This document shows positions 5,789 through 22,304 of a stretch of 64,000 nucleotides of DNA, piece after piece. The notes below the pieces were generated by a model. That model was not told the origin of the DNA and made no database searches. It saw only the letters and a program-made list of their open reading frames with translations. The DNA comes from Sandaracinaceae bacterium (GTDB lineage: Bacteria; Myxococcota_A; Polyangia; Polyangiales; Sandaracinaceae): contig JAHBWG010000029.1 of assembly GCA_019637095.1 (NCBI GenBank), positions 1-64,000 on the forward strand, written 5' to 3'. Position 1 is the first letter of the stretch. Each line of letters starts with the position of its first letter. The translations under genes were made by a program, and so were the position numbers.

Positions 5789-6081
5789 CGCGACGGTCCC
5801 CGGCCGGCGGTGCGCCGCGCCACCGCAGCGCGCGCGCGCGCCACCGCGAACGCGAGCGTGTCGTCGAGCTCGCGACCTTCGACGCGGAGCATGATCGGCG
5901 GGCCCTGCACGATCGCGAGGCGCAGGGTCACCGCCACGGTGCGCTCCGCGTCGCTCGACCAGACGTGGACTCCGGCGCGGCGCACCCGGTGCACGTAGGC
6001 GCCGAGGCCGGCGCGAAGCCGCTCCTCGAGCTGGAGCGGATCGGCGGCGTCTCGGGGATCGAGCGTGGCTTGGACTCGCAT
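5785..6081 (-). CDS. Small HPF/RaiA-like protein at the head of the exporter operon
   Basis: A 98-residue protein (GTG at 6084 directly before ATG 6081 is an alternative start). The pattern of an amphipathic helix (PLQLEERLRAGLGAYVHRVR), alternating strands (AGVHVWSSDAERTVAVTLRL), a short strand (PPIMLRVEGRE) and a final basic helix (ALAVARARAAVARRTAGR-like) resembles the S30AE/HPF ribosome-hibernation fold, where the helix faces rRNA and anticodon sites. Length matches short HPF proteins. Its stop overlaps the ABC start as ATGA, so the two are likely coupled. Similarity is by pattern only; it could instead be a different small alpha/beta protein that binds the transporter or its cargo. Confidence 0.5.
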   Translation of the reverse strand: MRVQATLDPRDAADPLQLEERLRAGLGAYVHRVRRAGVHVWSSDAERTVAVTLRLAIVQGPPIMLRVEGRELDDTLAFAVARARAAVARRTAGRGPSR

Positions 6082-6165
6082 CACGCGGCGATATGGGGCT
6101 CGCCACGACTGCGAACAAATCGAAATAACGATGTTCTCGATTCGATATTATGGAAGGCTCGGGGC
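6082..6165. promoter_or_regulatory. Divergent promoter region of the exporter operon and the lysR-type gene
   Basis: An 84-base spacer with a clear AT-rich core (about 6113-6155) in a very GC-rich setting. It holds the inverted repeat AATCGA (6118-6123) and TCGATT (6137-6142), overlapped by ATCGAA (6119-6124) and TTCGAT (6141-6146). GATTCGATATTAT at 6139-6151 contains a possible -10 (GATATT/TATTAT) for the lysR-type gene at 6166. Such dyads next to a LysR gene are typical autoregulatory sites; binding is inferred. A similar motif recurs upstream of pfa1. Confidence 0.5.
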
Positions 6166-7077
6166 ATGAACTGGCTGAACTACCACCACCTGCTGTACTT
6201 CTGGACGGTCGCTCGCGAGGGGTCGGTCACCCGCGCAGCCGAGGTGCTCCGGCTCTCGCAGCCCACGGTGAGCGGGCAGGTGAAGCTCCTCGAGGAGGCG
6301 CTGGGCGAGAAGCTCTTCCGGCGCGTCGGCCGCGAGCTCGTGCTGACGGACATGGGCCGGATCGCCTACCGCTACGCGGATGAGATCTTCTCCCTGGGCC
6401 GAGAGCTGTCCGACACGTTCGCCGGGCGGCTGGCTCGGCAGCCGGACCGGCTCACCATCGGCGTGAGCGACCTCGTCCCGAAGCTCATCCTCTACCGGCT
6501 GATCGAGCCCGCGCTCACGCTCGAGCCGCCCCTGCGCGTCATCTGTCGCGAGGGCAAGACGGAGCAGCTCCTCGCCGACCTCGCCATCCACGAGCTGGAC
6601 CTGGTGCTCGCCGAGGTCCCGATCGCGGGGCAGGCCAGCGTGCGCGCCTACAACCACCTCCTCGGGGAGACGGGCGTGTCCTTCTTCGCCACGAAGGCGC
6701 TCGCGCGCCCGCGGCGCCGGGGCTTCCCCCGAACCCTCGACGGCGCGCCGCTCCTCGCGCCGACGGAGAACACGCACCTGCGTCGCGCCCTCGATCACTG
6801 GCTCGCCCAGCTCGGGGCGCGTCCCCGGGTGGTCGCGGAGTTCGAGGACAGCGCGCTCCTCAAGGCGTTCGGTGCCGAGGGGGCGGGGCTCTTCCCGGGG
6901 CCGACCGCCATCGAGCGCGAGATCTGCGCCACGTACCGCGTCGAGGTGGTCGGGCGAACCGACGCGGTGGTGGAGCGCTTCTACGCGATCAGCGTCGAGC
7001 GACGGATCAAGCATCCGGCGGTGCGCCTGATCACCGAGCGGGCGCGCGAGCGCCTGTTCCCGACGCTCTCCGGCTGA
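6166..7077 (+). CDS. LysR-family transcriptional regulator, NhaR-like
   Basis: A 303-residue DNA-binding regulator. The N-terminal winged HTH (about residues 1-62) carries LNYHHLLYFWTVAREGSVTR, followed by the recognition helix (LSQPTVSGQVKLLEEALG) and LFRRVGRELVLTDMG, closely resembling NhaR, the LysR-type activator of sodium/proton antiport and stress genes. The rest is a periplasmic-binding-protein-like effector domain beginning at about residue 90 (RLTIGVSDLVPK). Start is ATG 6166. It is divergent from the exporter operon and is the gene immediately before the pfa operon, same strand, 160 bases away, so it may control either or both. The effector is unknown; a link with Na+ or membrane stress is only by family analogy. 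Confidence 0.85.
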   Translation: MNWLNYHHLLYFWTVAREGSVTRAAEVLRLSQPTVSGQVKLLEEALGEKLFRRVGRELVLTDMGRIAYRYADEIFSLGRELSDTFAGRLARQPDRLTIGVSDLVPKLILYRLIEPALTLEPPLRVICREGKTEQLLADLAIHELDLVLAEVPIAGQASVRAYNHLLGETGVSFFATKALARPRRRGFPRTLDGAPLLAPTENTHLRRALDHWLAQLGARPRVVAEFEDSALLKAFGAEGAGLFPGPTAIEREICATYRVEVVGRTDAVVERFYAISVERRIKHPAVRLITERARERLFPTLSG

Positions 7078-7237: not shown

Positions 7238-8896
7238 ATGACAGAGACGTCGCCTTCTTTTCGCTATCTGAGAAAGCCCGTGTTCTCGCCCATCGCGATG
7301 TGGTCCGGCGGCGCCCGCGCCCCGGCCTTCGAACCGCGAGCGCTCGTCGAGGCGGCGCGCGAGGTGCGGGCACCGATCCACGTCCTGCGCGAGCCGGGGG
7401 AGGGGCGCGTGGGCGTCGCGTTCGATGGCGACGTCATCCCGCCGAAGTATCTCAACGGCCACCGCGGCTACCCGCTCCTCGCGACGCTCCCGGCGCTGTA
7501 TCCCGAGTGGCTCGGCGACCGGAGCTTCGCCGAGGCCCACGGCGTCCGGTTCCCCTACGTCACCGGGGCGATGGCCAACGGGATCGCCACGACCGAGCTC
7601 GTCACGGCCGTCGCGCGCGCGGGGATGATCGGCTTCTTCGGGGCCGCCGGGCTCGCGTTCGGGCGGGTCGAGGAGGCCCTCGGTCGTCTCGAGGCCGCGC
7701 TCGGCGGGACCTCCCACGCGTGGGGGATGAACCTCATCCACTCGCCGAACGAGCCGGCGCTCGAGGAGGCGGTGGCGGATCTGTACCTCCGTCGCGGCGT
7801 GCGGCGGGTCTCGGCGGCGGCGTACCTGGCCCTCACGCCGGCCATCGTTCGATACGCTGCCACGGGTCTCACAGTCGATTCGGGTGGCGCGATCCACCGC
7901 AAGAACCACGTCTTCGCCAAGATCTCTCGGCCCGAGACGGCGCGGCACTTCCTGACTCCCGCGCCCGCCGCGATGCTCGACGCGCTGGTCCGGCGCGGCC
8001 AGTTGACCGCCGACGAGGCGCGGCTGGCCGCCCGCGTGCCCGTGGCGGAAGATATCACTGTCGAGGCCGACTCGGGCGGCCACACCGACAAGCAGGCGCT
8101 CGGCGCAGTGTTCCCGGTGATCGCCGAGCTCCGCGACGCGCTCGCGGCCGAGCACGGCTACACCCGGGCCGTCCGCGTCGGCGCGGCGGGCGGCCTCGGC
8201 ACGCCGCGCGCGGTCGCCGGCGCGTTCTCCATGGGCGCCGCGTACGTGCTCACCGGCTCCGTGAACCAGTCCGCCGTCGAGTCGGGCCTCTCGGCCGAGG
8301 GTAAGCGCATGCTGGCCGGGGCCACCATGGGCGACGTGACGATGGCCCCTGCCGCCGACATGTTCGAGCAGGGCGTCGAGGTCCAGGTGCTCAAGCGTGG
8401 TACCATGTTCGGGGCGCGCGCGCACCGGCTCCTGGGCGCGTACCGGCGCTATCCGGGGCTCGACGCGGTCGAGCCGAACGAGCGAGCCGCCCTCGAGAAG
8501 CAGGTCCTGGGCGCGAGCTTCGACGAGGTCCGCGCGTCGACCCGCGCGTTCTGGGCCGAGCGCGATCCGTCGCAGAACGAGCTCGCAGCCCGCGATCCGA
8601 AGCACGAGATGGCGCTGGCGTTCCGCTGGTACCTCGGGCTGTCGAGTCGCTGGGCCATCACCGGTGAGCCGTCGCGCCGTCTCGACTATCAGATCTGGTG
8701 CGGGCCCGCCATGGGCGCCTTCAACGAGTGGGTGCGCGGGTCGTTCCTCGAGGCGCCGGAGAACCGGTCCGCGGTGCAGATCGCGCTCAACCTGCTCGAA
8801 GGCGCGGCGGTGGTGACCCGCGCGCACCAGCTCCGCAGCTATGGCGCGGCGGTCCCCGCGGCCGCCTTCCGCTTCGCGCCTCGCCCGCTCGCATAG
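7238..8896 (+). CDS. pfa1: PUFA synthase enoyl reductase subunit (PfaD-like)
   Basis: A 552-residue FMN-dependent enoyl reductase of the PfaD / trans-acting PKS ER family (2-nitropropane dioxygenase-like TIM barrel). It would reduce selected enoyl-ACP intermediates during cytosolic assembly of polyunsaturated fatty acids. Visible family signatures are PYVTGAMANGIATTELV, GMIGFFGAAGL, the FMN-site segment EADSGGHTDKQ, RVGAAGGLGTP and LTGSVNQ, then the C-terminal QIWCGPAMGAFNEWV block typical of PfaD. Length is that of the family. It is first in the operon, 7 bases before pfa2; ER first, then the PfaA-like and PfaC-like subunits, is the arrangement known from terrestrial myxobacteria. Confidence 0.93.
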   Translation: MTETSPSFRYLRKPVFSPIAMWSGGARAPAFEPRALVEAAREVRAPIHVLREPGEGRVGVAFDGDVIPPKYLNGHRGYPLLATLPALYPEWLGDRSFAEAHGVRFPYVTGAMANGIATTELVTAVARAGMIGFFGAAGLAFGRVEEALGRLEAALGGTSHAWGMNLIHSPNEPALEEAVADLYLRRGVRRVSAAAYLALTPAIVRYAATGLTVDSGGAIHRKNHVFAKISRPETARHFLTPAPAAMLDALVRRGQLTADEARLAARVPVAEDITVEADSGGHTDKQALGAVFPVIAELRDALAAEHGYTRAVRVGAAGGLGTPRAVAGAFSMGAAYVLTGSVNQSAVESGLSAEGKRMLAGATMGDVTMAPAADMFEQGVEVQVLKRGTMFGARAHRLLGAYRRYPGLDAVEPNERAALEKQVLGASFDEVRASTRAFWAERDPSQNELAARDPKHEMALAFRWYLGLSSRWAITGEPSRRLDYQIWCGPAMGAFNEWVRGSFLEAPENRSAVQIALNLLEGAAVVTRAHQLRSYGAAVPAAAFRFAPRPLA

Positions 8897-8903
8897 GGAA
8901 GCC

Positions 8904-11900
8904 ATGGACGACGAGAAGAACCGCATTGCCGTCGTGGGCCTCGCCACGCTGTTCCCCGGCTCGGTCGACGCTACCGGGTTCTGGAGGGACATCCTCCACG
9001 GCACCGACCGTATCACCGACGTCCCCCCGAGCCACTGGCTCGTCGAGGACTACTACGACCCCGATCCGAGCGCCCCCGACAAGACCTACGCGCGCCGCGG
9101 GGCGTTCCTGCCGCGGGTCGAGTTCGAGCCGATGCGCTGGGGGGTGCCGCCGTCCACCGTCGAGGCGACCGACACCTGCCAGCTCCTGGCGCTCATCGTG
9201 GCCCAGCAGGTCCTCGAGGACGCCGCCCGCGGGCAGTTCGACTACACCGACCGCTCACGCATGAGCGTCATCCTCGGCGTCACGAGCGCGCAGGAGCTGC
9301 TCGGCGCGATGGTGAGCCGCCTGCAGCGTCCGGTCTGGACCAAGGCGCTGCGCGAGATGGGACTCGGCGAGCCCGAGGTGCAGGAGGCCTGCAAGCGCAT
9401 CGAGGCCCACTACACGCCGTGGCAGGAGGCGACGTTCCCCGGCGTGCTCGGCAACGTGGTGGCCGGGCGGATCGCGAACCGCCTCGACCTCGGCGGTACC
9501 AACTGCGTCACCGACGCGGCCTGCGCGAGCACCTTCAGCGCGCTGTCGATGGCGGTGAACGAGCTCCGGCTCGGCGAGTCGGACGTGGTGATCTGCGGCG
9601 GCGCCGACACCATGAACGACATCTTCATGTACCTCTGCTTCAGCAAGACGCCCGCGCTGAGCAAGACGGGCGACTGCCGGCCGTTCAGCGACGGCGCCGA
9701 CGGCACGATGCTCGGCGAGGGGTTCGGGATGCTCGCGCTCAAGCGGCTCGCGGACGCCGAGCGCGACGGCGATCGGGTCTACGCGGTCATCACCGGCGTC
9801 GGCACGAGCAGCGACGGCAAGGGGACCGCCGTGTACGCGCCGGTCGCGGCGGGGCAGGCGAGGGCGCTCCGCCGCGCGTACTCCCACACGGGGTACGGGA
9901 TCGAGACGGTCGAGCTCATCGAGGCCCACGGCACCGGCACGGTCGCCGGTGACGCGGCGGAGTTCGCCGGTCTGAGCACCGTGTTCGACGAGAGCGGGCG
10001 GGCGGACCGGCAGTGGTGCGCCCTGGGCTCGGTGAAGTCGCAGATCGGGCACACGAAGGCGGCGGCGGGCGCGGCGGGGCTCGTGAAGGCGATCCTCGCG
10101 CTCAACCACCGTGTGTTGCCGCCGACGATCAAGGTGGAGCGCCCGAACCCCAAGCTCGATCTCCCCTCGAGCCCGTTCTACCTGAGCACGGTGGCGCGTC
10201 CGTGGGTGCGCGGGGCGGACCACCCCCGGCGCGCAGGGGTGAGCTCCTTCGGCTTCGGCGGATCGAACTTCCACGTCGCGCTCGAGGAGTACGGCGGGTC
10301 GGCCGCGCGCGCGCTCCGGCGGCGCGCGTGCCCCACGGAGCTCGTCCTGGTCGGCGGCTCCTCGCCGGCCGACGTCGCGGCGCGTGCGCGCGCGATGGCC
10401 GCCGAGGTGGGGGCGGCGCCCGGCACGCTCGCGTCCCTCGCCCGCACGAGCCAGGAGACGTGGGACCCGAGCGCGCCCGCGCGCCTCGCCGTGGTGGCCG
10501 AGGACGAGGCGTCGCTCGCCGCCAAGCTCGAGCGCGGCGCGACGCTCGCGGCGGCCGGCGAGCCGACCGCGACTCCGGACGGTATCGCGTTCGGTACGGG
10601 CGCTCCGCCCGGCGACGTGGCGTTCCTCTTCCCCGGGCAGGGGAGCCAGTACGTCTCGATGGGGGCAGACGTCGCGATGACGTGGGAGGAGGCGCTCGCG
10701 CCGTGGGACGCGGCCGCGAGCCTCGCGGGCGTGTTCGACGAGCCGCTCCACGACGTCGTCTTCCCCAAGCCGGTGTTCGATGACGGCACCCGCGCGGCGC
10801 AGGCGGAGAAGCTCACCCGGACCGAGTGGGCCCAGCCCGCGATCGGGGTGGCGAGCCTCTCCCACCTCGCGCTCCTCGACGCGGTCGGGCTCGCCCCGAA
10901 GGCGGTCGCCGGGCACAGCTTCGGCGAGGTGACCGCGCTCGCGGCCGCTGGCGTGCTCTCGCGGGAGGACGCGATCCGCGTGGCCCGCCGTCGTGGCGAG
11001 CTGATGGCGGAGGCCGCGGCGACGCCGGGCGCGATGACCGCGGTGAGCGCCGCGCGCGACGCCATCGAGGTGGCCCTCACGCCGTGGCCCGAGGGCCTCG
11101 TCGTGGCCAACCACAACGGGCCTACGCAGGTGGTGCTGAGCGGTCCGCTCGCCGCGATCGAGGCCGCGGAGGCTGCGCTGTCGGGCGCGAAGCTCGCCTT
11201 CCGGCGGCTGCCCGTCGCGACGGCCTTCCACTCGAGCGTCGTGGCGGGCTCGACCGAGCCGTTCGCGCGGTTCCTCGAAAGTGTGTCGTTCTCGACACCA
11301 TCGGTCCCCGTCTACGCGAACCGGGAGGCGGCGCCGTACCCGGTGGCGCCGCCCGATGCGCGGGCGCTCCTCGCGGCTCAGCTCGCCTCGCCCGTGCGCT
11401 TCGTCGAGTCGATCGAGGCGATGTACGCGGCGGGCGCGCGCGTGTTCGTGGAGGTCGGGCCTGGCGCGGTGCTGAGCGGGCTGGTCGAGCGCATCCTCGA
11501 GGGGCGGCCTCACCTCGCCGTGCCGGTCGACCGCAAGGGGAAGCACGGGGTGACCAGCCTGTTCGCGGCGCTCGGCCGCCTCGCCGCGGCGGGGGTCCCG
11601 CTCTCGCTCTCGGCCCTCTGGGAGCCTTTCCTCCCGGTCGAGGATCCGCGCGCCCGCGTGGCGCCCAAGATGACGCTCGCGCTCAGCGGGTCGAACTACG
11701 GCAAGCCGTACCCACCGCCGAACGGCGCGGCCGGTCTCCCCGCCCCCAACCCCGAGCGCTCCCGACCCGCCCCGACCGAGCAGGATGTGTCGCCCATGTC
11801 GAAGCCGACCCTCACCCCTCCCGTCGCGACCGCCCCGGTCGCTGCGGCGCCCGCTTCCGCGGCTGCGCTCGCCGCGCCCGCGCCCGTCGCTGCCGCGCCC

Positions 11901-14885
11901 GTCGCTGCCCCGCCGACGGCCGCGCCGCTCGCGGGGGACGGCTGGGCGAGCGCCTACCTCGCCGTGCAGTCCCGCGTGATCGACGCCCACACCGCCTACA
12001 CCCACGCGATGGCGACCGCACACGGGACGTTCCTGGCAGCCCAGCAGCAGGCCCTCGCCACGATGTCGGGGCTCCTCGTCGGGGCTCCTGCGGCGTCGCT
12101 CGCGCCGCTCCCGCCTCCTCCGGCGATCGCGCCGGTGACGCACGCGCCGCTCGCGCCGGTCGCGGTGGTGGCTCCGCCGGCGCCGCTCGCGCCGCCGGCG
12201 CTGGCTGCGGCCCGCGCGGCGCACGTCACGGCCCCCGCCTCGCTGCCCGCCGCGCCGCCGCGCGAGACGGCCCCGGTCGCGGCTCCCGGCGTGGACCTCG
12301 CGGCGCTGCTGCTGGAGGTGGTGGCGGACAAGACGGGCTACCCGACGTCGATGCTGGAGCTGTCGATGGACCTCGAGGGCGACCTCGGGGTGGACTCGAT
12401 CAAGCGGGTGGAGATCCTGGCGGCGATGCGCGAGCGCGCGGGCTCGCTGCCGGAGGTGGATCCGGCGGAGCTCGGCAAGCTGCGCACGCTGCAAGAGATC
12501 GTGTCGCGGCTGGGCGACGGTTCGGCATCGGCGAGCGCGGAGGCGCGCGCCCCCGAGGCGGCGCGTACCGAGGCGTCGAGGTGGGTGCTGGAGCGTGTCG
12601 CCGCGCCGCCGTCGGGCTTCGCGCTCGCGGGCCTGCTCGACGCCGCGTCGGTGGCGGTCGTCGATGGGGGCTCGGGGCTCGCCGAGTCGGTCGCCGAGGC
12701 GCTGACGGTGCGCGGGGTTCGCGCGCGAGCCGGCAGCCCGGACGGGTCCACCGATGGGGTCGTCTTCCTGGGCGGGCTCGCCGAAGTGGGTGACGGCGTG
12801 CAAGCCGCCTTGCGTGTCCAGCGCGAGGCGTTCGAGGCGGCCAAGGCCGTCGCGGCGCGCCTCTCGACCGGCCCCGGGGTGTTCGTCACCGTGCAGGACA
12901 CGGGCGGGGACTTCGGACTGTCCGGCTCGCCGCGCGCGTGGCTCGGCGGGCTGCCCGGTCTAGTCAAGACGCTGGCGCAGGAGTGGCCCACGGCCGGCGT
13001 GCGCGCGATCGACCTCGACCGCGGGGGGCGCGACGCGTCGGCGATCGCGACGGCGATCGCGCGCGAGCTCGTCTCCGGCGGCTCGCCGCGCGGACCTGGT
13101 GCGAGCGGGGGCGGCGCGGAGGTCGCGATCGCCGCCGACGGCGCGCGCTCGACGCTCGTCAGCGCGCCGGTCGCCGTCGGCGCGGGCGCTCCTCGCCTCG
13201 GGCGCGAGGACGTCGTGGTGGCCTCGGGCGGCGCGCGCGGGGTGACCGCGCGGACGTTGATCGCGCTCGCGGAGGCGAGCCGGGCGCGGTTCGTCTTGCT
13301 CGGTCGCACCGCGCTCGAGGACGAGCCGCCAGAGTGCGCGGGCGCGACGACGGACGCCGAGCTCAAGCGCGCGCTGCTGACCGCCGCTCAGGCGCGCGGT
13401 GCGCGGGTCTCGCCCAAGGAGCTCGACGGCGTCGCCTCGCGCGTGCTCGCGGCGCGCGAGGTGCGGGCGACGCTCGAGGCGATCGGGCGCGCCGGCGGCG
13501 AGGCGCGCTACCTGCCGGTCGACGTGCGCGACGCGGCGGCGCTGCGTGCGGCGCTCGACGAGGTGCGCGCGGCCTGGGGCCCGATCACCGGGCTCGTTCA
13601 CGGCGCCGGGGTGATCGCCGATCGCTTCGTGGCCGACAAGCCGCTCGAGGACTTCGATCGGGTGATGGACGTCAAGGCGGGCGGGCTCGCCGCGCTCCTC
13701 GACGCCACCGCGGGCGACCCGCTGCGCGTGCTCGTCGCCTTCAGCTCGGTCGCGGGACGCACCGGCAACCGAGGCCAGGCGGACTACGCGATGGCCAACG
13801 AGACGCTCAACAAGGTCGTCGCGCGCGAGGTCGCGCGCCGCGAGGGGCTGTTCGGTCGCAGCCTGGGCTGGGGACCGTGGAAGGGCGGCATGGTGACGCC
13901 AGCGCTCGAGCAGCACTTCGCGCGGCTCGGGGTCCCGATGATCGGGCTCGACGAGGGCGCGCGGATGCTCGTGGAGGAGCTGTCGGACACCGGCGCCGCG
14001 CTCGAGCTCGTGCTCGGCGGCGAGCCGCGGCCGGAGGCGCTCGCGGCGGCGGGGGGCGGCGTCGGGCAGAAGCAGTGGCGGTACGAGGCGCTCGTCTCGC
14101 GCGAGGCGTTCCCCGCGGTGGAGCACCACCGCGTGAAGGGGCAGCCCGTCCTGCCGGTCGCCCTCGCGCTCGAGCTGTTCGCGCGCGCGGTCGAGGCGGC
14201 GCGTCCGGAGCTCGTCCTGACCCGCATCGACGACCTCGCGGTGCTCAAGGGCGTCGTGCTCGAGCGCTTCGAGGCGGAGGGGGATCGGTTGGCGATCGAG
14301 GTCGCGCTGATCTCGAACGGCGACGGGATCGAGGTGGGCCTCAAGCTGACCGACGCGAGCGGGCGGGCGCGGTACTCCGCGCGCGGGGTGGCCGAGCGCG
14401 CGGTCGCGGCGCCGAGCGCGCTCCCGGCGAGGCCCGCGGGGCTCGGGACGTTCGAGGGCGTGGTCTACGACGGCGTCGCCCTGTTCCACGGCGACGCGTT
14501 CAAGGTGATCGTCGGGGCGCCGGCGGTCGGCGACGCGGGCGCGGAGGCCACCGTCGAGGGCGCGCGCGCCCGCGGGTGGGGGGGCGCGGGCTTCGCTACG
14601 GATCCCGCGCTCGTCGACGGAGGGCTCCAGCTCGCGCTCCTCTGGACGTGTCACGCCGACGGCGGCGCGGCGCTCCCGACCGCCGTGAAGAGCTTCCGTC
14701 GCTATCGGGCCGGCCTGCTCGACGGCGCCGCGCGCGCGGTCCTCGTCGGGCACCAGCGCGCGGCGGATCGCAGCCTCTCCGACGTGGTCTTCTTCGACGC
14801 GAGCGGCGAGCCCGTGGCGGAGCTCCGCGGGGTCGCGATGCACGTCCTGCCCGGCTCGCGCGAGCGCGCCTCGGCGCGCGCCTGA
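8904..14885 (+). CDS. pfa2: PUFA synthase subunit KS-MAT-ACP-KR-DH (PfaA-like)
   Basis: A 1993-residue multidomain synthase that elongates acyl chains with malonyl units. Order: KS (about 1-470; Cys207 in DAACASTF, His342 in EAHGTGT, His383 in GHTKAAAG), malonyl transferase (about 560-900; Ser672 in GHSFGE), an Ala/Pro linker with a helical block at 1011-1056, one ACP (about 1130-1200; Ser1165 in GVDSIKR), ketoreductase (about 1420-1700; ASGGARGVT nucleotide site, Tyr1628 in ADYAMAN) and a double-hotdog dehydratase (1730-1980; His1742 in HRVKGQPVLP, Asp1905 in DGGLQ). ATG 8904 was chosen over upstream codons inside pfa1 because KNRIAVVG begins the KS fold there. Only one ACP is visible; most described PfaA-type proteins carry several in tandem. 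Confidence 0.95.
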   Translation: MDDEKNRIAVVGLATLFPGSVDATGFWRDILHGTDRITDVPPSHWLVEDYYDPDPSAPDKTYARRGAFLPRVEFEPMRWGVPPSTVEATDTCQLLALIVAQQVLEDAARGQFDYTDRSRMSVILGVTSAQELLGAMVSRLQRPVWTKALREMGLGEPEVQEACKRIEAHYTPWQEATFPGVLGNVVAGRIANRLDLGGTNCVTDAACASTFSALSMAVNELRLGESDVVICGGADTMNDIFMYLCFSKTPALSKTGDCRPFSDGADGTMLGEGFGMLALKRLADAERDGDRVYAVITGVGTSSDGKGTAVYAPVAAGQARALRRAYSHTGYGIETVELIEAHGTGTVAGDAAEFAGLSTVFDESGRADRQWCALGSVKSQIGHTKAAAGAAGLVKAILALNHRVLPPTIKVERPNPKLDLPSSPFYLSTVARPWVRGADHPRRAGVSSFGFGGSNFHVALEEYGGSAARALRRRACPTELVLVGGSSPADVAARARAMAAEVGAAPGTLASLARTSQETWDPSAPARLAVVAEDEASLAAKLERGATLAAAGEPTATPDGIAFGTGAPPGDVAFLFPGQGSQYVSMGADVAMTWEEALAPWDAAASLAGVFDEPLHDVVFPKPVFDDGTRAAQAEKLTRTEWAQPAIGVASLSHLALLDAVGLAPKAVAGHSFGEVTALAAAGVLSREDAIRVARRRGELMAEAAATPGAMTAVSAARDAIEVALTPWPEGLVVANHNGPTQVVLSGPLAAIEAAEAALSGAKLAFRRLPVATAFHSSVVAGSTEPFARFLESVSFSTPSVPVYANREAAPYPVAPPDARALLAAQLASPVRFVESIEAMYAAGARVFVEVGPGAVLSGLVERILEGRPHLAVPVDRKGKHGVTSLFAALGRLAAAGVPLSLSALWEPFLPVEDPRARVAPKMTLALSGSNYGKPYPPPNGAAGLPAPNPERSRPAPTEQDVSPMSKPTLTPPVATAPVAAAPASAAALAAPAPVAAAPVAAPPTAAPLAGDGWASAYLAVQSRVIDAHTAYTHAMATAHGTFLAAQQQALATMSGLLVGAPAASLAPLPPPPAIAPVTHAPLAPVAVVAPPAPLAPPALAAARAAHVTAPASLPAAPPRETAPVAAPGVDLAALLLEVVADKTGYPTSMLELSMDLEGDLGVDSIKRVEILAAMRERAGSLPEVDPAELGKLRTLQEIVSRLGDGSASASAEARAPEAARTEASRWVLERVAAPPSGFALAGLLDAASVAVVDGGSGLAESVAEALTVRGVRARAGSPDGSTDGVVFLGGLAEVGDGVQAALRVQREAFEAAKAVAARLSTGPGVFVTVQDTGGDFGLSGSPRAWLGGLPGLVKTLAQEWPTAGVRAIDLDRGGRDASAIATAIARELVSGGSPRGPGASGGGAEVAIAADGARSTLVSAPVAVGAGAPRLGREDVVVASGGARGVTARTLIALAEASRARFVLLGRTALEDEPPECAGATTDAELKRALLTAAQARGARVSPKELDGVASRVLAAREVRATLEAIGRAGGEARYLPVDVRDAAALRAALDEVRAAWGPITGLVHGAGVIADRFVADKPLEDFDRVMDVKAGGLAALLDATAGDPLRVLVAFSSVAGRTGNRGQADYAMANETLNKVVAREVARREGLFGRSLGWGPWKGGMVTPALEQHFARLGVPMIGLDEGARMLVEELSDTGAALELVLGGEPRPEALAAAGGGVGQKQWRYEALVSREAFPAVEHHRVKGQPVLPVALALELFARAVEAARPELVLTRIDDLAVLKGVVLERFEAEGDRLAIEVALISNGDGIEVGLKLTDASGRARYSARGVAERAVAAPSALPARPAGLGTFEGVVYDGVALFHGDAFKVIVGAPAVGDAGAEATVEGARARGWGGAGFATDPALVDGGLQLALLWTCHADGGAALPTAVKSFRRYRAGLLDGAARAVLVGHQRAADRSLSDVVFFDASGEPVAELRGVAMHVLPGSRERASARA

Positions 14886-14888
14886 GCC

Positions 14889-17800
14889 GTGCGCGCGATG
14901 CCCATCGCCATCGTCGGGCGCGCGTGCCTGTTGCCGGGCGCGCACGACCCGGCGGCGCTCTTCGCGCTCGCTCGTGAGGGGCGCTGCGTACTGCGCGATG
15001 CGCCGGAGGGTGCGTGGCGCGTCCCGACGAGCCACGTCCTGGCGGCGTCGCCCGAGGAGGCGCGCGATCGCACGTGGACGCGTCGCGGGGGCTACGTCGA
15101 GGGGTTCCGCTTCGACCCCGATGGGTACGCGGTGCCCGCGGAGGTGCTCGGCCCGCTCGACCCGCTCGTCCACTGGGTGATCGACACCGCGGCGCGGGCG
15201 CTCGACGACGCGGGCGTGCGCAGGCTGGACGCGCGGCGGACCGGCGCGGTGCTCGGCAACCTGGGCCTTCCGTCGAGCGGGTCGGCGCGCTTCGCCGAGC
15301 ACGTCTGGCTCGGCGCGCACGCGCGCGGCCTCGGGGAGGCGGCGCCGGCGCCCCTCGACCGCTTCCAGAGCGGCCTGCCCGCGCACCTCGCGGCGCGGGC
15401 GCTCGGGCTCGGCGCCGGCGCGTTCGCGCTCGACGCGGCGTGCGCCTCGTCCCTGTACGCCATCGCCTACGCCTGCGACGCCCTCGCCGAGGGGCGGGCG
15501 GACCGGATGCTCGCGGGTGCGGTGAGCGCGGCCGACGACCTCTTCCTCCACGTCGGCTTCTGCGCCCTGGGCGCGATGAGCAAGACGGGCCAGAGCCGGC
15601 CGTTCCACGCGGGCGCGGACGGGCTGGTCCCGGCGGCGGGGTGCGGGTTCGTGGTGCTCGAGCGGCTCGACGACGCGGTCCGCGCCGGTCGCACGATCCA
15701 CGGCGTGATCCGCGGCGTCGGGCTGGCCAACGACGGACGCGGCGAGGGGCTGCTCGCGCCGAGCGCGCGCGGGCAGGCGCGCTCGATGGAGCTCGCGCTC
15801 GCGCGCGCGGGGCTCGCGCCCGAGGACGTGCCGTACGTGGAGTGCCACGCGACGGGGACCCCGGTCGGCGACGCGACCGAGCTCGCGTCGCTGCGCGCGG
15901 TGTACGGGGACGCGCCCCGACGGATCGGCTCGCTGAAGGCGAACCTCGGGCACCTCATCACGGCGGCGGGCGTGGCGGGCCTGATCAAGATCCTCGAGTC
16001 CCTGCGCGAGGGCGTGGCCCTGCCGACGCCGCATCTCGATCGGAGCAGCGACGCGCTCGATGACTCGCCGTTCGAGGTCCTCGACGCACCCGCGCCGTGG
16101 CGCGGGCCGAGGCGCGCGGGGCTGAGCGCGTTCGGCTTCGGGGGCAACGACGCGCACCTCCTCGTCGAGGCGTACGAGCCCGCGAAGGCGGGGCGCGCGG
16201 CCACCGCGGCTTCGCGCGCGAGCGGCGCGGTCGTCGTCGTCGGCCTCGGGGCGCGCGTCGGCGACGGAGGCTCCGCCGCGGACCTCGAGCGCGCGCTCTT
16301 CGATCGGCGCCCGGTCGGGCGCGCGCAGGCGGTGAAGATCCCGCTCGCTGCGCTCCGCTTCCCTCCCGCGGACCTCGCGAAGGCGCGGCCGGCACAGACG
16401 CAGCTCCTCGCGGCGGCGATCGAGGCGAGCCGTGGGCTCACCCTCCCGAGCGAGACGACGGGCGTCTACGTCGGGTACGGCTGCGATCCGGAGATCGCGC
16501 GCTGGGGCGCGCGGTGGCGCGCGCGGGCGTTCGCCGAGGCGCTCGGCGCGGACGAGGCGTGGGCGCGCGAGGCGGCGGACGCGCTCGTCGCGCCGCTCGA
16601 GGCGCCGCACGTGGTCGGCGCGCTGCCGAACATCCCCGCCAACCGGCTCAGCTCGCAATTCGACTTGCGCGGTCCGAGCCACGCGGTGATGGCCGAGGAG
16701 CTGAGCGGCGTGCGCGCCCTGGAGCTCGCGGTGCGCGCGCTCGCGCGCGGGGACCTCGACGCGGCGCTCGTCGGCGCGGTGGATCTCGCGGACGAGCCGG
16801 TCCATCGCGCGGCTTCGGCCGACGCGGACGCGGCGGACGCGGCGGTCGCGCTGGTGCTGATGCGCCGCGCGGACGCGGAGCGCGAGGGCTGCGCGATCCT
16901 GGCCGAGCTCGCGTCGGCGGGCGAGACCTCCCCGGGCGAGCGGTTCGCGTCGGGGCTCCCGCGCGCGCACGCCGCGAGCGGGCTCGTCGAGGTCACCGCG
17001 GCGCTCGTCTTCGCGGCGCGCGGGCGACGCCCCGACGGGAGCGCGTGGACCGACGCCGAGCGGAGCCTCTCCGTCGAGATCGAGGCGCTCGGGTCGGAGC
17101 GCGCGGCCTTCGTCGTCACCGCGCGGGGCGCGCCGATCGGACCGCTCCCCGAGGCGCCCGACGCGCCCTGCCTCGAGCTGCCCGCGCACCCGCCCCCGGT
17201 CCTCTTGCCGGCGCTTCGCGCGCCCGTGGTGGAGATCATGCAGCCAGCCCCGCCCCTGCCGCCGACGCGCCTCGACGGGCCGCCGGCTCCCCCGGTGAGC
17301 GCCGCCGAGGTGTTCGCCGCGACGCCTGCGTCGTCCCGAGGTGACGAGGCGCACGGCGCGCCGGCGTCGCCCGCGCCCGCCGCGGATCCCGCTCCGCCGC
17401 CGGCTCGTCCGACCGCGCCGACGTCGGCCGCGCCGCCCGCGCACGCGCCGGTCGCCGCGCCGGTCGCTGCGACCCCCTTCGGTGCCTCGGGGTGGCTCGC
17501 CGCACACGTCGAGCACCAGAGCCGCCTCGCGGATGCGCATCGCCACTTCGTCGAGCAACAGAGCCTCGTCCACCAGCAGTTCCTGCAGGCGCTGGTGACG
17601 CTCCCGACGCCGCTCGCCGCCGCGCCCGTCGTGAGCGCGCCCGTCGTGAGCGCGCCCGCCGTGAGCGCGCCCGTCGTGAGCGCGCCCGTCGCGAGCGCGC
17701 CCGTCGTGAGCGCGCCCGTCGTGAGCGCGCCCGTCGCGAGCGCGCCCGTCGCGAGCGCGCCCGTCGCGAGCGCGCCCGTCGCGGCGCCGCCGACCGCACC

Positions 17801-20800
17801 CGCCGCCGGTCGACCGGCGCCGGGTTCGGTGCCGAGCGCGTTCCGGCCGCGCGGGCCGTCGTTCGACCGAGACGCGCTGCGGATCCACGCGGGCGGGCGC
17901 ATCTCCACGATCTTCGGGCCCGAGTTCGCCCAGCAGGACGCGCACGCGGTCCAGGTTCGGATGCCCGAGCCGCCGCTCCTGCTCGCCGATCGCTGCACGG
18001 GCATCGACGCGGTCCCCGGCTCCATGGGCAAGGGCGTGTGTTGGACCGAGACGGATGTCCGCGCCGACTCCTGGTATCTCCACGACGGCGCGATGCCGAC
18101 CGGGATCATGGTCGAGTCCGGCCAGGCCGACCTCTTCCTCATCAGCTACCTCGGCGTCGATTTCCTCAACCGGGGCGAGCGCGCGTACCGCCTGCTCGGC
18201 TGCGAGATGACGTGGGAGGGCGACCTCCCGACGATCGGCGAGACGCTGGCCTACGAGATCCACGTCGATGGTCACGCGGCGCAAGGCGACGTGCGATTGT
18301 TCTTCTTCCACTACGACTGCTACGTCCGGCGCGCCGACGGGACGACGCGCCCCGCGCTGCGCGTTCGCGGCGGGCAAGCGGGCTTCTTCACCGAAGCCGA
18401 GCTCGCGGCGTCCGCGGGGATCCTGTGGCGCCCCGAGCGCCAGGAGATCCGAGCCGACGCGCGCGTCGATCCACCAGCGACGTCGACGTCGGCGCGTCGC
18501 TTCGAGCGCTCCGCGATCGAGGCGTTCGCGGCGGGCCGCCCGTGGGAGTGCTTCGGCGACGGGTACGAGCGGACCAAGACGCACACGCGCACGCCGCGCA
18601 TCCAGGACGGTCGGATGCTGTTTCTCGACACCGTCGAGGTCTTCGACCCGACGGGGGGACCGTGGGGCCGCGGTTACCTCAAGGCGGTCACGCCGATCAC
18701 GGCGGACGACTGGTTCTTCGCCGGACATTTCAAGAACGACCCCTGCATGCCGGGCACGCTCATGCTCGAGGGCTGCGTCCAGGCGATGGCGTTCTACCTC
18801 GCGGCGATGGGCTACACCGTCGAGCGCGATGGCTGGCGCTTCCGCCCGATCCCCGACGAGACGTACTCGCTGCGCTGCCGCGGGCAGGTGATCCCGTCGA
18901 GCCGCGAGCTCACGTACGAGGTGTTCGTCGAGGAGGTGCACGACGGGCCGGCGCCGCGCCTCTACGCGGACCTGCTCTGCACGGTCGATGGCCTCGGCGC
19001 GTTCCACGCGCGCCGCTTCGGGCTCGAGCTCGTCCCGAGCTGGCCGCTCACGAGCCGGCCCGAGCTCTCGCGCGAGGGCGCGGGCGATGCGCGCGCGGCG
19101 ACGGCTTCCTACCAGGGCGCGCCGCCGTTCCGCTTCGACTACCCGTCGCTGCTCGCGTGCGCGTGGGGGCAGCCGTCGACCGCCTTCGGTCCGATGTACG
19201 CGCGCTTCGACGGCGCGCGCCGGACGCCGCGGCTGCCCGGGCCGCCGTACCACTTCCTGAGCCGCGTCACCTCGGTCGACGGCGCGATGGGTGGTCTCGA
19301 GGCGTCGCGCACGTTCACGTTCGAGTACGACGTGCCGCCGGATGCCTGGTACTTCCGCGAGAACGGCGCGCGCGTCATGCCGTTCGCGGTGCTGCTCGAG
19401 GCGGCGCTCCAGCCGTGCGGTTGGGTGGCGAGCTACGTGGGCAGCACGCTCACGAGCGAGTCCGACTTCCTGTTCCGCAACCTCGACGGCGAGGGGACGA
19501 TCCTCGCCGAGGTGCTGCCCGAGAGCGGGACCCTCCGCTCGACGGTCACGATCCGGAACATCTCGCGCTCGAGCGGGATGATCATCGAGTCCTTCGAGGT
19601 GCGCTGCGCGCTCGGCGAGACCGACGTCTACGCGCTGAAGACGGTGTTCGGCTTCTTCCCGCCGGAGGCGTTCGAGGACCAGGCGGGGTTGCCGACGAGC
19701 CCGGCGCAGCGAGCGCTCCTCGAGGCGCCCTCGAACGTGCACGTCGACTTGACGGCCCGGCCGGCGCGGTTCGCGCGCGGGACGCTCCGGCTCGCCGAGC
19801 CGATGCTCCTGATGATCGACCGGGTCACGCGCTTCGAGCCCACCGGTGGCGCGAGCGGGCTCGGCGCGCTCCGCGCGGAGAAGGACGTCGACGCGGGCGA
19901 GTGGTTCTTCAAGGCGCACTTCTACCAGGACCCGGTGCAGCCCGGCTCCCTCGGCATCGAGGCGATGCTCCAGCTGCTGCAGGTCTTCATGATCGAGGCG
20001 GGGCTCGGTGAGGGCATCGAGGCGCCGCGGTTCGAGGCGATCGCCGTCGATCGCCCGCACGTGTGGAAGTACCGCGGGCAGGTCGTCCCCGAGAACCGCC
20101 TCATCTCGACGACGATGGAGATCGTGGAGAAGGGCGCCGACGAGCGCGGCGCGTACGCGCTCGCCGATGCCTCGCTGTGGGTGGACGGCAAGCGGATCTA
20201 CGAGGCGAAGCGCCTCGGGATGCGCATCGTCGCCGGCGTCGACGAGCGCCGAGCGGCGGGCGACGAGACGCTCGACCCCGCGCAGGATCGTTGGCTCGGC
20301 GATCACCGGCCGACCTACACGGCCCCCGCGCTGCCGATGATGAGCATGCTCGACCGCATGGTCGCCGCGGCGCGCGCCGCGCGCGGCCCGGTGGACGGGC
20401 TCCGCGATCTGCGCGTCGAGCGCTGGCTCGTCGTGGAGGGGCCGACGCGGATCACGACCGAGGTCGAGGGCGACGAGGTGCGCCTCTACGCCTGGCGCGA
20501 CGCCCCGCGCGCGGCGCTGTCCCGCTTCGAGCTCGTCGCCCGCGCGACGATCGACGCGCCCCCGCCGCTCCCCGCGCCCGCGCCGCTCCGCGACGCGACC
20601 GCGATCGAGCCGTACGCGGGCGAGCGCCTCTTCCACGGCCCCGCCTTCCACTACGCGCGCCGCCTCTCGCTCGGCGCAGCCGGCTCGACGATGGTGCTCG
20701 ACGCGGGCCGGGGCGCAGTCCCGTTCGGCGCGATCCACCAGGGCTTGTTCGACGCGGCCACGCACGGGATCCCGCACGACGCCTTGCACCTTTGGTCGTC

Positions 20801-22304
20801 GCGCATCGGCGACGACGTGGTCGGCTACCCGCACCGGCTCGACGTGCGCTTGTCGGGCGAGGTGCCGCGCGCGGGCGAGGTCGTGTGCGAGGCGCGCTTC
20901 GCGGGCTTCGACGGGGACGACGCGCGCTTCCCCGTCGTGCACCTCTGGCTCCAGGCGGGCGGACGGACGTTCGCGGAGCTGCGGCTGACCGAGGTGCTCC
21001 TCCCGAAGGGGCCCCTCGGCATGGCGGCGCCCGTCGATCGGCGGCGGTTCCTCGCCGAGCGTGCGTTCGTGGCTGGCGTCGGCCTCGCGCGCTCCGAGGG
21101 CGGCGCGACCGTCCTCGCGGTCGACGACGTGGCGCGGAGCGACTGGTTCCCCGGCACGATCGAGGCGGTGTACGGGACGCGCGATCCGCGCGCGATCGCG
21201 ATCGCCGAGCACGTCGCGGCGTCCGTCTCGGCCCACCCCTCCACGGTGTCCGTCGAGCGCGAAGACGCGGTGTGCGCCCACGCGCCGCTGACCGCGCATC
21301 GCGTCATCGTCGCAGAGGAGCGCGGGCGCGTGTCGGTGCGCGCCGCGGCGCCGCCGCGCCTCGCCATCGCGCCGGTCGTCGACTTCTGGCGCGCGCACTT
21401 CGACGTCGGCCCGTGGCCGGTCGAGGAGCTCTACTACGGGCTGGTCGAGCGCTTCGTCGCCGCCGTCCACCTCGAGGACCCGCGCGCCCTCGCCGCCCTG
21501 CGGGGCCGGGGTGTGCTGTACCTCGCGAACCACCAGGTCGGGATCGAGTCGCTCGTGTTCTCGATCGTGGCCTCCGCCCTCGCCGGCGTGCCCACGCAGA
21601 CGCTCGCGAAGGCCGAGCACCGCACGAGCTGGCTCGGGCGGCTGATCGCGCACTGCTTCACATGGCCGGGCGTCGAGGACCCAGGGGTGATCGCCTACTT
21701 CGACCGGAGCGATCCGTCGTCGCTGCCCAGCCTCGTGCGCACCCTCGCGAGCGGGGCGCACGCCAAGAGCCTGATGGTGCACGTCGAGGGCACGCGGGCG
21801 CTCGGCGCGCGACAGCCCGTCGAGAAGATGAGCGGCGTCTTCTGCGATCTCGCGATCGAGGCGGGTGTGCCCGTCGTCCCCGTCCGCTTCAGCGGCGGGC
21901 TGCCGGTCGAGCCGGCGGCGGCGCGGCTCGAGTATCCGGTCGGGATGGGCAGGCAGGACTACTGGATCGGCCGCCCGATCTCGCCGTCCGAGCTCGCGGC
22001 GCTGCCGTACAAGGCGCGCACCGAGCGCGTCGTGGCGGCGATCGAGGGGCTCGGACCTCCCCGTCACCTCGAGACGCCGCACGCGCCCGACCCTGCCTTC
22101 GAGGCGCGGGTGCGGGCGCGCGCGGAGGCGGGCGTCGAGGTCGGGCTCGCCGCCATCGCGGAGGTGCTCGCCGAGCGGGCGGGATCGAGCGAGCCGGCGC
22201 GAGCGCTGTGCGAGGTGCTCTCTGGGCGCGCGCCGCTGCCGAGCGACCCCGCCGAGGCGGCGTGGCTCAGCGAGCTCGCGGCGCGGTTCGGGACGCGCCG
22301 CTGA
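14889..22304 (+). CDS. pfa3: PUFA synthase subunit KS-CLF-DH-DH-(DH-like)-AT (PfaC-like)
   Basis: A 2471-residue synthase subunit. KS (about 4-430; Cys185 in DAACASSL, His320 in ECHATGT, His355 in GHLITAAG); chain-length factor (about 445-800) in which the active Cys is replaced (SHAVMAEELSG, about residue 602); linker with a helical block (865-906) and a 5-residue tandem repeat (912-965); two FabA-like double-hotdog dehydratases (about 985-1420, His1280 in FAGHFKNDPCMPG; about 1440-1800, His1677 in FKAHFYQDPVQPG); a third DH-like segment (about 1820-2130, LFHGPAFHYARRL); and a C-terminal 1-acylglycerol-phosphate acyltransferase-like domain (about 2160-2400; NHQVGIES, His2215, and VEGTR). GTG 14889 follows the pfa2 stop by 3 bases; ATG 14898 is possible. 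The AT probably transfers finished PUFA to lipid, as inferred for myxobacterial Pfa3. Confidence 0.94.
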   Translation: MRAMPIAIVGRACLLPGAHDPAALFALAREGRCVLRDAPEGAWRVPTSHVLAASPEEARDRTWTRRGGYVEGFRFDPDGYAVPAEVLGPLDPLVHWVIDTAARALDDAGVRRLDARRTGAVLGNLGLPSSGSARFAEHVWLGAHARGLGEAAPAPLDRFQSGLPAHLAARALGLGAGAFALDAACASSLYAIAYACDALAEGRADRMLAGAVSAADDLFLHVGFCALGAMSKTGQSRPFHAGADGLVPAAGCGFVVLERLDDAVRAGRTIHGVIRGVGLANDGRGEGLLAPSARGQARSMELALARAGLAPEDVPYVECHATGTPVGDATELASLRAVYGDAPRRIGSLKANLGHLITAAGVAGLIKILESLREGVALPTPHLDRSSDALDDSPFEVLDAPAPWRGPRRAGLSAFGFGGNDAHLLVEAYEPAKAGRAATAASRASGAVVVVGLGARVGDGGSAADLERALFDRRPVGRAQAVKIPLAALRFPPADLAKARPAQTQLLAAAIEASRGLTLPSETTGVYVGYGCDPEIARWGARWRARAFAEALGADEAWAREAADALVAPLEAPHVVGALPNIPANRLSSQFDLRGPSHAVMAEELSGVRALELAVRALARGDLDAALVGAVDLADEPVHRAASADADAADAAVALVLMRRADAEREGCAILAELASAGETSPGERFASGLPRAHAASGLVEVTAALVFAARGRRPDGSAWTDAERSLSVEIEALGSERAAFVVTARGAPIGPLPEAPDAPCLELPAHPPPVLLPALRAPVVEIMQPAPPLPPTRLDGPPAPPVSAAEVFAATPASSRGDEAHGAPASPAPAADPAPPPARPTAPTSAAPPAHAPVAAPVAATPFGASGWLAAHVEHQSRLADAHRHFVEQQSLVHQQFLQALVTLPTPLAAAPVVSAPVVSAPAVSAPVVSAPVASAPVVSAPVVSAPVASAPVASAPVASAPVAAPPTAPAAGRPAPGSVPSAFRPRGPSFDRDALRIHAGGRISTIFGPEFAQQDAHAVQVRMPEPPLLLADRCTGIDAVPGSMGKGVCWTETDVRADSWYLHDGAMPTGIMVESGQADLFLISYLGVDFLNRGERAYRLLGCEMTWEGDLPTIGETLAYEIHVDGHAAQGDVRLFFFHYDCYVRRADGTTRPALRVRGGQAGFFTEAELAASAGILWRPERQEIRADARVDPPATSTSARRFERSAIEAFAAGRPWECFGDGYERTKTHTRTPRIQDGRMLFLDTVEVFDPTGGPWGRGYLKAVTPITADDWFFAGHFKNDPCMPGTLMLEGCVQAMAFYLAAMGYTVERDGWRFRPIPDETYSLRCRGQVIPSSRELTYEVFVEEVHDGPAPRLYADLLCTVDGLGAFHARRFGLELVPSWPLTSRPELSREGAGDARAATASYQGAPPFRFDYPSLLACAWGQPSTAFGPMYARFDGARRTPRLPGPPYHFLSRVTSVDGAMGGLEASRTFTFEYDVPPDAWYFRENGARVMPFAVLLEAALQPCGWVASYVGSTLTSESDFLFRNLDGEGTILAEVLPESGTLRSTVTIRNISRSSGMIIESFEVRCALGETDVYALKTVFGFFPPEAFEDQAGLPTSPAQRALLEAPSNVHVDLTARPARFARGTLRLAEPMLLMIDRVTRFEPTGGASGLGALRAEKDVDAGEWFFKAHFYQDPVQPGSLGIEAMLQLLQVFMIEAGLGEGIEAPRFEAIAVDRPHVWKYRGQVVPENRLISTTMEIVEKGADERGAYALADASLWVDGKRIYEAKRLGMRIVAGVDERRAAGDETLDPAQDRWLGDHRPTYTAPALPMMSMLDRMVAAARAARGPVDGLRDLRVERWLVVEGPTRITTEVEGDEVRLYAWRDAPRAALSRFELVARATIDAPPPLPAPAPLRDATAIEPYAGERLFHGPAFHYARRLSLGAAGSTMVLDAGRGAVPFGAIHQGLFDAATHGIPHDALHLWSSRIGDDVVGYPHRLDVRLSGEVPRAGEVVCEARFAGFDGDDARFPVVHLWLQAGGRTFAELRLTEVLLPKGPLGMAAPVDRRRFLAERAFVAGVGLARSEGGATVLAVDDVARSDWFPGTIEAVYGTRDPRAIAIAEHVAASVSAHPSTVSVEREDAVCAHAPLTAHRVIVAEERGRVSVRAAAPPRLAIAPVVDFWRAHFDVGPWPVEELYYGLVERFVAAVHLEDPRALAALRGRGVLYLANHQVGIESLVFSIVASALAGVPTQTLAKAEHRTSWLGRLIAHCFTWPGVEDPGVIAYFDRSDPSSLPSLVRTLASGAHAKSLMVHVEGTRALGARQPVEKMSGVFCDLAIEAGVPVVPVRFSGGLPVEPAAARLEYPVGMGRQDYWIGRPISPSELAALPYKARTERVVAAIEGLGPPRHLETPHAPDPAFEARVRARAEAGVEVGLAAIAEVLAERAGSSEPARALCEVLSGRAPLPSDPAEAAWLSELAARFGTRR
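17622..17783 (+). repeat. 15-base tandem repeat inside pfa3 (APV[VA]S linker)
   Basis: Ten full copies of GCGCCCGTCGTGAGC (or GTCGCGAGC / GCCGTGAGC variants) plus a partial unit encode Ala-Pro-Val-Val/Ala-Ser repeats at residues 912-965 between the chain-length factor and the first dehydratase. The unit is almost unchanged at DNA level, including third positions, which suggests recent slippage or unequal exchange. The peptide should be an extended, flexible spacer between domains. Confidence 0.95.

Follow-up and report, generated by a model that had tools for sequence, protein, structure and literature searches.

The window analysed here is a stretch of 64,000 nucleotides from a Sandaracinaceae bacterium (contig JAHBWG010000029.1). 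Judged from its genes and domains, it carries a complete pfa1-pfa2-pfa3 PUFA synthase of Type L, whose Pfa2 subunit holds a single ACP in place of the usual tandem array. It is probable that this array has truly contracted from an ancestral tandem of at least two ACPs to one. We therefore describe a known kind of synthase with an unusual ACP count, for which collapse of the array during assembly is the main open doubt.

The cluster follows the gene order given for Type L by Shulse and Allen 2011 (PMC3098273), with the pfaD homologue at the 5' end followed by the pfaA and pfaC homologues, all on one strand between positions 7238 and 22304. The window contains no N. The features are as follows.

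5965 to 7077, + strand: LysR-family regulator directly upstream of pfa1, with a putative link to the cluster
7238 to 8896, + strand: pfa1 (pfaD homologue), enoyl reductase of 552 aa (TIGR02814 pfaD_fam, 611 bits against a cut-off of 449)
8904 to 14885, + strand: pfa2 (pfaA homologue), KS-MAT-ACP-KR-DH, 1993 aa from the ATG at 8904 (TIGR02813 omega_3_PfaA, 1273 bits against a cut-off of 1010)
8919 to 10136, + strand: KS domain of Pfa2, with DAACA, EAHGTGT and GHTKAAAG intact (Pfam and motif check)
10623 to 11501, + strand: MAT domain, with GHSFGE intact (Pfam and motif check)
12306 to 12509, + strand: single ACP with LGVDSIK, phosphopantetheine Ser codon at 12396-12398 (Pfam and family HMM)
13221 to 13883, + strand: KR domain, with ASGGARGVT and YAMAN intact (Pfam and motif check)
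14067 to 14855, + strand: PKS-type dehydratase, PS-DH (PF21089 and PF14765)
14889 to 22304, + strand: pfa3 (pfaC homologue), with KS-CLF, four FabA-like hot-dog stretches and a C-terminal AGPAT (Pfam)
21504 to 21890, + strand: AGPAT (PF01553) of Pfa3, residues 2206-2334, the release domain of Type L and myxobacterial synthases (Pfam)

The reading frame of pfa2 is open from an ATG at 8841, but translation more likely begins at the ATG at 8904, which follows directly on the stop codon of pfa1 at 8896. The order KS-MAT-ACP-KR(-DH) with intact catalytic motifs is that of PfaA subunits. Likewise, Pfa3 combines a KS, a second KS stretch (CLF), four FabA stretches and PF01553, as expected of Type L. 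The Type L synthases of myxobacteria and actinobacteria, such as those of Sorangium cellulosum, Aetherobacter and Minicystis rosea (PMC3098273), also place the pfaD homologue first and share the domain order of Pfa2 and Pfa3 and the C-terminal AGPAT with the window; the pfa genes of Aetherobacter have been assigned to Type L (PMC4882568). These relatives differ from the window in having several ACPs in Pfa2, for example three each in M. rosea, G001 and G006, the latter two being genomes of the window's family in one and two contigs.

Only a single strong Pfa2-type KS was recovered from the source genome, which rules out a second pfa cluster there. Two other genomes of the same family, G005 (L118, G005:C40) and G008 (L117, G008:C703), do carry a second, diverged pfa cluster beside the orthologue. 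Its KS is 72% identical to that of the window, and its ACP copies are near-identical (three in G005, two in G008). A candidate phosphopantetheinyl transferase for activating the ACP is the one PF01648 match in the source genome, a 226-aa frame on another contig; in Aetherobacter, Sorangium and M. rosea, pfaE lies away from the pfa cluster (PMC8436480).

The original prediction had noticed one DSIK phosphopantetheine site in Pfa2, Ser1165, between the MAT and KR domains. Both Pfam and an HMM trained on the Pfa ACPs of relatives bear this out. Pfam reports a single PP-binding domain (33.0 bits, cut-off 20.8; residues 1156-1223, equal to 12306-12509), and its serine is Ser1165 counted from the ATG at 8904 or Ser1186 from 8841. 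The Pfa-ACP HMM, run with every filter off, gives one match in Pfa2, of 111.5 bits, at the DSIK site. The scan was exhaustive and gave no second match above 2.2 bits in Pfa1 to Pfa3 or in the six frames of the window, so that cryptic ACPs in the Ala/Pro linkers, which would have overturned the prediction, were rejected. No further copy of the ACP DNA was found elsewhere in the assembled source genome. The HMM does not undercount, because it recovers three domains each in M. rosea, G001 and G006, and Pfam concurs for G006 and M. rosea.

In place of the tandem array typical of PfaA subunits, the assembled Pfa2 has one ACP. Published ranges for tandem ACPs in PUFA synthases run from 2 to over 10 (PMC4882568) or from 2 to 9 (PMC3585217), although Shulse and Allen (PMC3098273) did not exclude single-ACP clusters.

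A low count might mean that the cluster is on its way to loss, with ACP copies already gone and synthesis weak or absent, and the window does have fewer ACPs than all of its close relatives. We consider this very improbable. As originally predicted, the synthase is not simply decayed: the frames of pfa1 to pfa3 are full length, the KS, MAT, KR and ACP motifs are intact, and Pfam recognises the PS-DH. Moreover, the window's ACP equals those of multi-ACP relatives in HMM score, and identity to the G200 counterparts is 79% for Pfa1 and 63% for Pfa3. A free ACP from another locus could also make up for the missing ACP capacity in trans, and the source genome does have other PP-binding proteins (17 matches in the genome), some on short open frames. 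However, none of these genes matches the Pfa ACP at the DNA level and none lies in the window. PUFA synthases of this type are not known to need a free ACP, and trans supply seems to us the least credible of the explanations.

The position of the window among its relatives was examined in a tree of Pfa2 KS-MAT sequences (65 rows, quick search). The window falls within a clade of eight (98% SH-aLRT) and within one of nine (100%), and every other row in them carries a multi-ACP label. Complete arrays are available for G200 (four ACPs) and G043 (two), and G182, G438 and G378 have at least two ACPs across contig pieces. G005 and G002 are taken as multi-ACP because their contigs overlap exactly within the ACP. 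G224, the weakest case of the clade, is so classed because its array is broken and includes a shared stretch of 69 bp. Most close relatives are therefore not single-ACP, and the prediction that the window is unusual among its kin holds, in that the other eight members have or appear to have at least two. The original prediction had proposed an early or a reduced form. An early or primitive form was rejected, as the window is nested within multi-ACP lineages; a reduced form stands if the assembly is right. Given the counts in the rest of the clade, the window's array either contracted recently or lost a repeat when the genome was assembled.

The second of these alternatives, which the original prediction did not consider, holds that the gene really has two or more near-identical tandem ACPs, of which one copy was kept by the assembler or when contigs were merged. 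The copies in tandem ACP arrays are homogenised, and such arrays are where assemblies from short reads break. In single-contig relatives, the ACP copies share exact stretches of 114-242 bp. Across the phylum, contig ends pile up at the ACP. Among 71 minus-strand matches, 12 end 2.0-2.5 kb past the KS, compared with one to six in each of the other 500-bp bins up to 4 kb past it, and the window's ACP sits 2.0-2.2 kb past its KS. In G005 and G002, pfa2 is spread over a pair of contigs, and within the ACP the suffix of one contig repeats the prefix of the other exactly, over 141 and 127 bp respectively. Three further genomes show exact overlaps as well, of 110-140 bp. If joined at the 141- and 127-bp overlaps, pfa2 of G005 and G002, the two nearest relatives, would read as one-ACP. 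Lengths of 141 and 127 bp equal the largest k-mers often set in MEGAHIT and SPAdes, and the G002 record carries a SPAdes-style NODE name. The source genome is itself a fragmented draft of 197 contigs, some of only 2.6 kb, and was probably assembled from short reads. Shared k-mer ends were not found among 20 contig ends of the source genome, a result that is uninformative about the assembler.

Several observations nevertheless speak for a true single ACP. The window's contig passes through the ACP without a break; in relatives with near-identical copies, contigs usually end at that point. The source assembly contains no orphan ACP fragment. Draft arrays that were assembled through do show their copies, such as four in G200 and five in G225, and one-ACP Pfa2s are real in other genomes. 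Collapse, to which the multi-ACP state of the closest relatives also lends weight, is on this evidence a serious but doubtful possibility, and we favor true contraction.

The occurrence of one-ACP Pfa2s elsewhere comes from scans of genome contigs and Myxococcota genomes, in which ACPs were counted on uncut arrays. Surveyed relatives have one to seven ACPs in Pfa2, and 17 of the 64 counted have one, a proportion that is not an unbiased frequency because the rows were hand-picked from the matches, partly by frame length. Counts from one- or two-contig genomes are three in G001, G006 and M. rosea, five in G101 and Sulfidibacter, two in G488, four in G489, at least two in G487, and one in G479 and G480. 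The last two are different species, each with a complete pfa1-pfa2-pfa3 cluster in a single-contig genome ("single contig" being taken from the assembly and not from the sequencing method). Natural one-ACP PUFA synthases thus exist beyond reasonable assembly doubt, and tandem ACPs are usual for these enzymes without being strictly defining. The full pfa1-pfa2-pfa3 set was checked in G038 as well as in G479 and G480. All three species examined from family f20 (G387, G388 and G391) have one-ACP Pfa2s, with the ACP of G391 lying in a different reading frame from the KS, as after a sequencing indel.

Four Acidimicrobiales drafts (L010, L063, L074 and L076) carry Pfa2s with one ACP. These Pfa2s group together in the tree with 100% SH-aLRT and appear to represent a lineage in which the single ACP is fixed. 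In these drafts, as in G479, G480 and the three f20 species, the one ACP lies between MAT and KR, like that of the window. However, these Pfa2s are not close to the window and occupy separate places in the tree.

Across the tree, the single-ACP state requires at least nine changes, at least six of which are forced by well-supported branches. Shuffled labels gave a mean of 15, and none of 500 shuffles was as low as nine. This clustering indicates that the state is mostly inherited and does not reflect random assembly failure. One-ACP synthases are therefore real, recurrent minorities, and from these sequences the single-ACP state appears heritable yet labile, with the window as a derived, isolated case. 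The chances seem to us evenly balanced that working one-ACP PUFA synthases arose repeatedly in myxobacteria from multi-ACP ancestors, with the window among the most recent.

Some further observations were made in the course of the survey. Within one genus, ACP number varies between one in G335 (L179) and two in G247 (L177), with short branches between them; this difference reflects either very fast change or draft-assembly error. In L194, from the single-contig 14.8-Mb genome G487, two ACPs are in frame, and a third ACP-like segment reads in a different frame, which would fit frameshifts on either side of it. L030 and L088, titled as a Klebsiella pneumoniae MAG, encode myxobacterial-type Pfa2s and agree in length with contigs of G059 and G197, which are placed in the window's phylum, so these titles look wrong.

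The MAT-ACP linker of Pfa2 also contains a conserved motif of ~48 aa (GWASAYLAVQSRVIDAHTAYTHAMATAHGTFL..., 11934 to 12101, + strand), probably helical, that is found in nearly all Pfa2 relatives examined and has the consensus [AG]WxxAYQExQRQTAEAHAAYxxxMAxSHxxFL. A related motif lies past the CLF of Pfa3 (17481-17636) and was seen in most Pfa3s. Pfam has no match over the ~48-aa linker motif. It is possibly a docking or dimerisation element that joins Pfa2 and Pfa3. In the linker between the CLF and DH of Pfa3, the translation also reads as long tandem APVVSAPV(A/V)S repeats (approximately 17640-17850 of the window).

Judged by its intact domains, the window's synthase is probably a working enzyme. 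MAT would load malonate onto the single phosphopantetheinylated serine, the KS and KS-CLF would extend the chain, KR, DH and ER would process it, and AGPAT would pass the completed acyl chain on to lysophosphatidic acid. As each Pfa2 polypeptide offers one tether, it would carry one intermediate at a time, so lower flux is expected. According to the account of Jiang 2008 given in PMC3585217, one active ACP is enough for PUFA synthesis and more ACPs raise yield. In OrfA with 4 to 11 ACPs, ACP number altered productivity and not the product profile (PMC5067506). These results imply that one ACP should suffice for a working enzyme, at lower flux, and the low product amount suggested by the original prediction is plausible by analogy with such dosage work. 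The accompanying suggestion that ACP number might signal a different chain fares poorly, because altering the number of ACPs did not shift the product profile in published work (PMC5067506).

Chain type would instead be set by the KS-CLF, the DH and the AT content. The product type is better predicted from Pfa3 than from ACP number. Pfam recognises no AT domain (Acyl_transf_1) in the window's Pfa3, and the Pfa3 proteins of G200 and G006 likewise lack a recognisable one. In this respect all three resemble the S. cellulosum type, which is without AT (PMC4882568, PMC8436480), whereas Pfa3 of M. rosea differs in having a weak AT match (27.3 bits) below the cut-off. Linoleic acid is the only product of S. 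cellulosum with its AT-less Pfa3 (PMC4882568). By this analogy, the AT-less Pfa3 offers a hint toward the window's product, but it is only a lead, because G006 and G200 also have no AT.

The tandem ACP array counts as a hallmark of PUFA synthases in the literature, where reviews set two as the lower bound (PMC4882568, PMC3585217). Draft genomes can give wrong ACP counts, since contigs built from short reads often stop within the array. If one-ACP synthases did originate repeatedly, then tandem arrays are not always maintained by selection. Natural one-ACP clusters, some of them beside multi-ACP close kin, would provide test pairs for the role of the array in yield, stability, and temperature or membrane demand.
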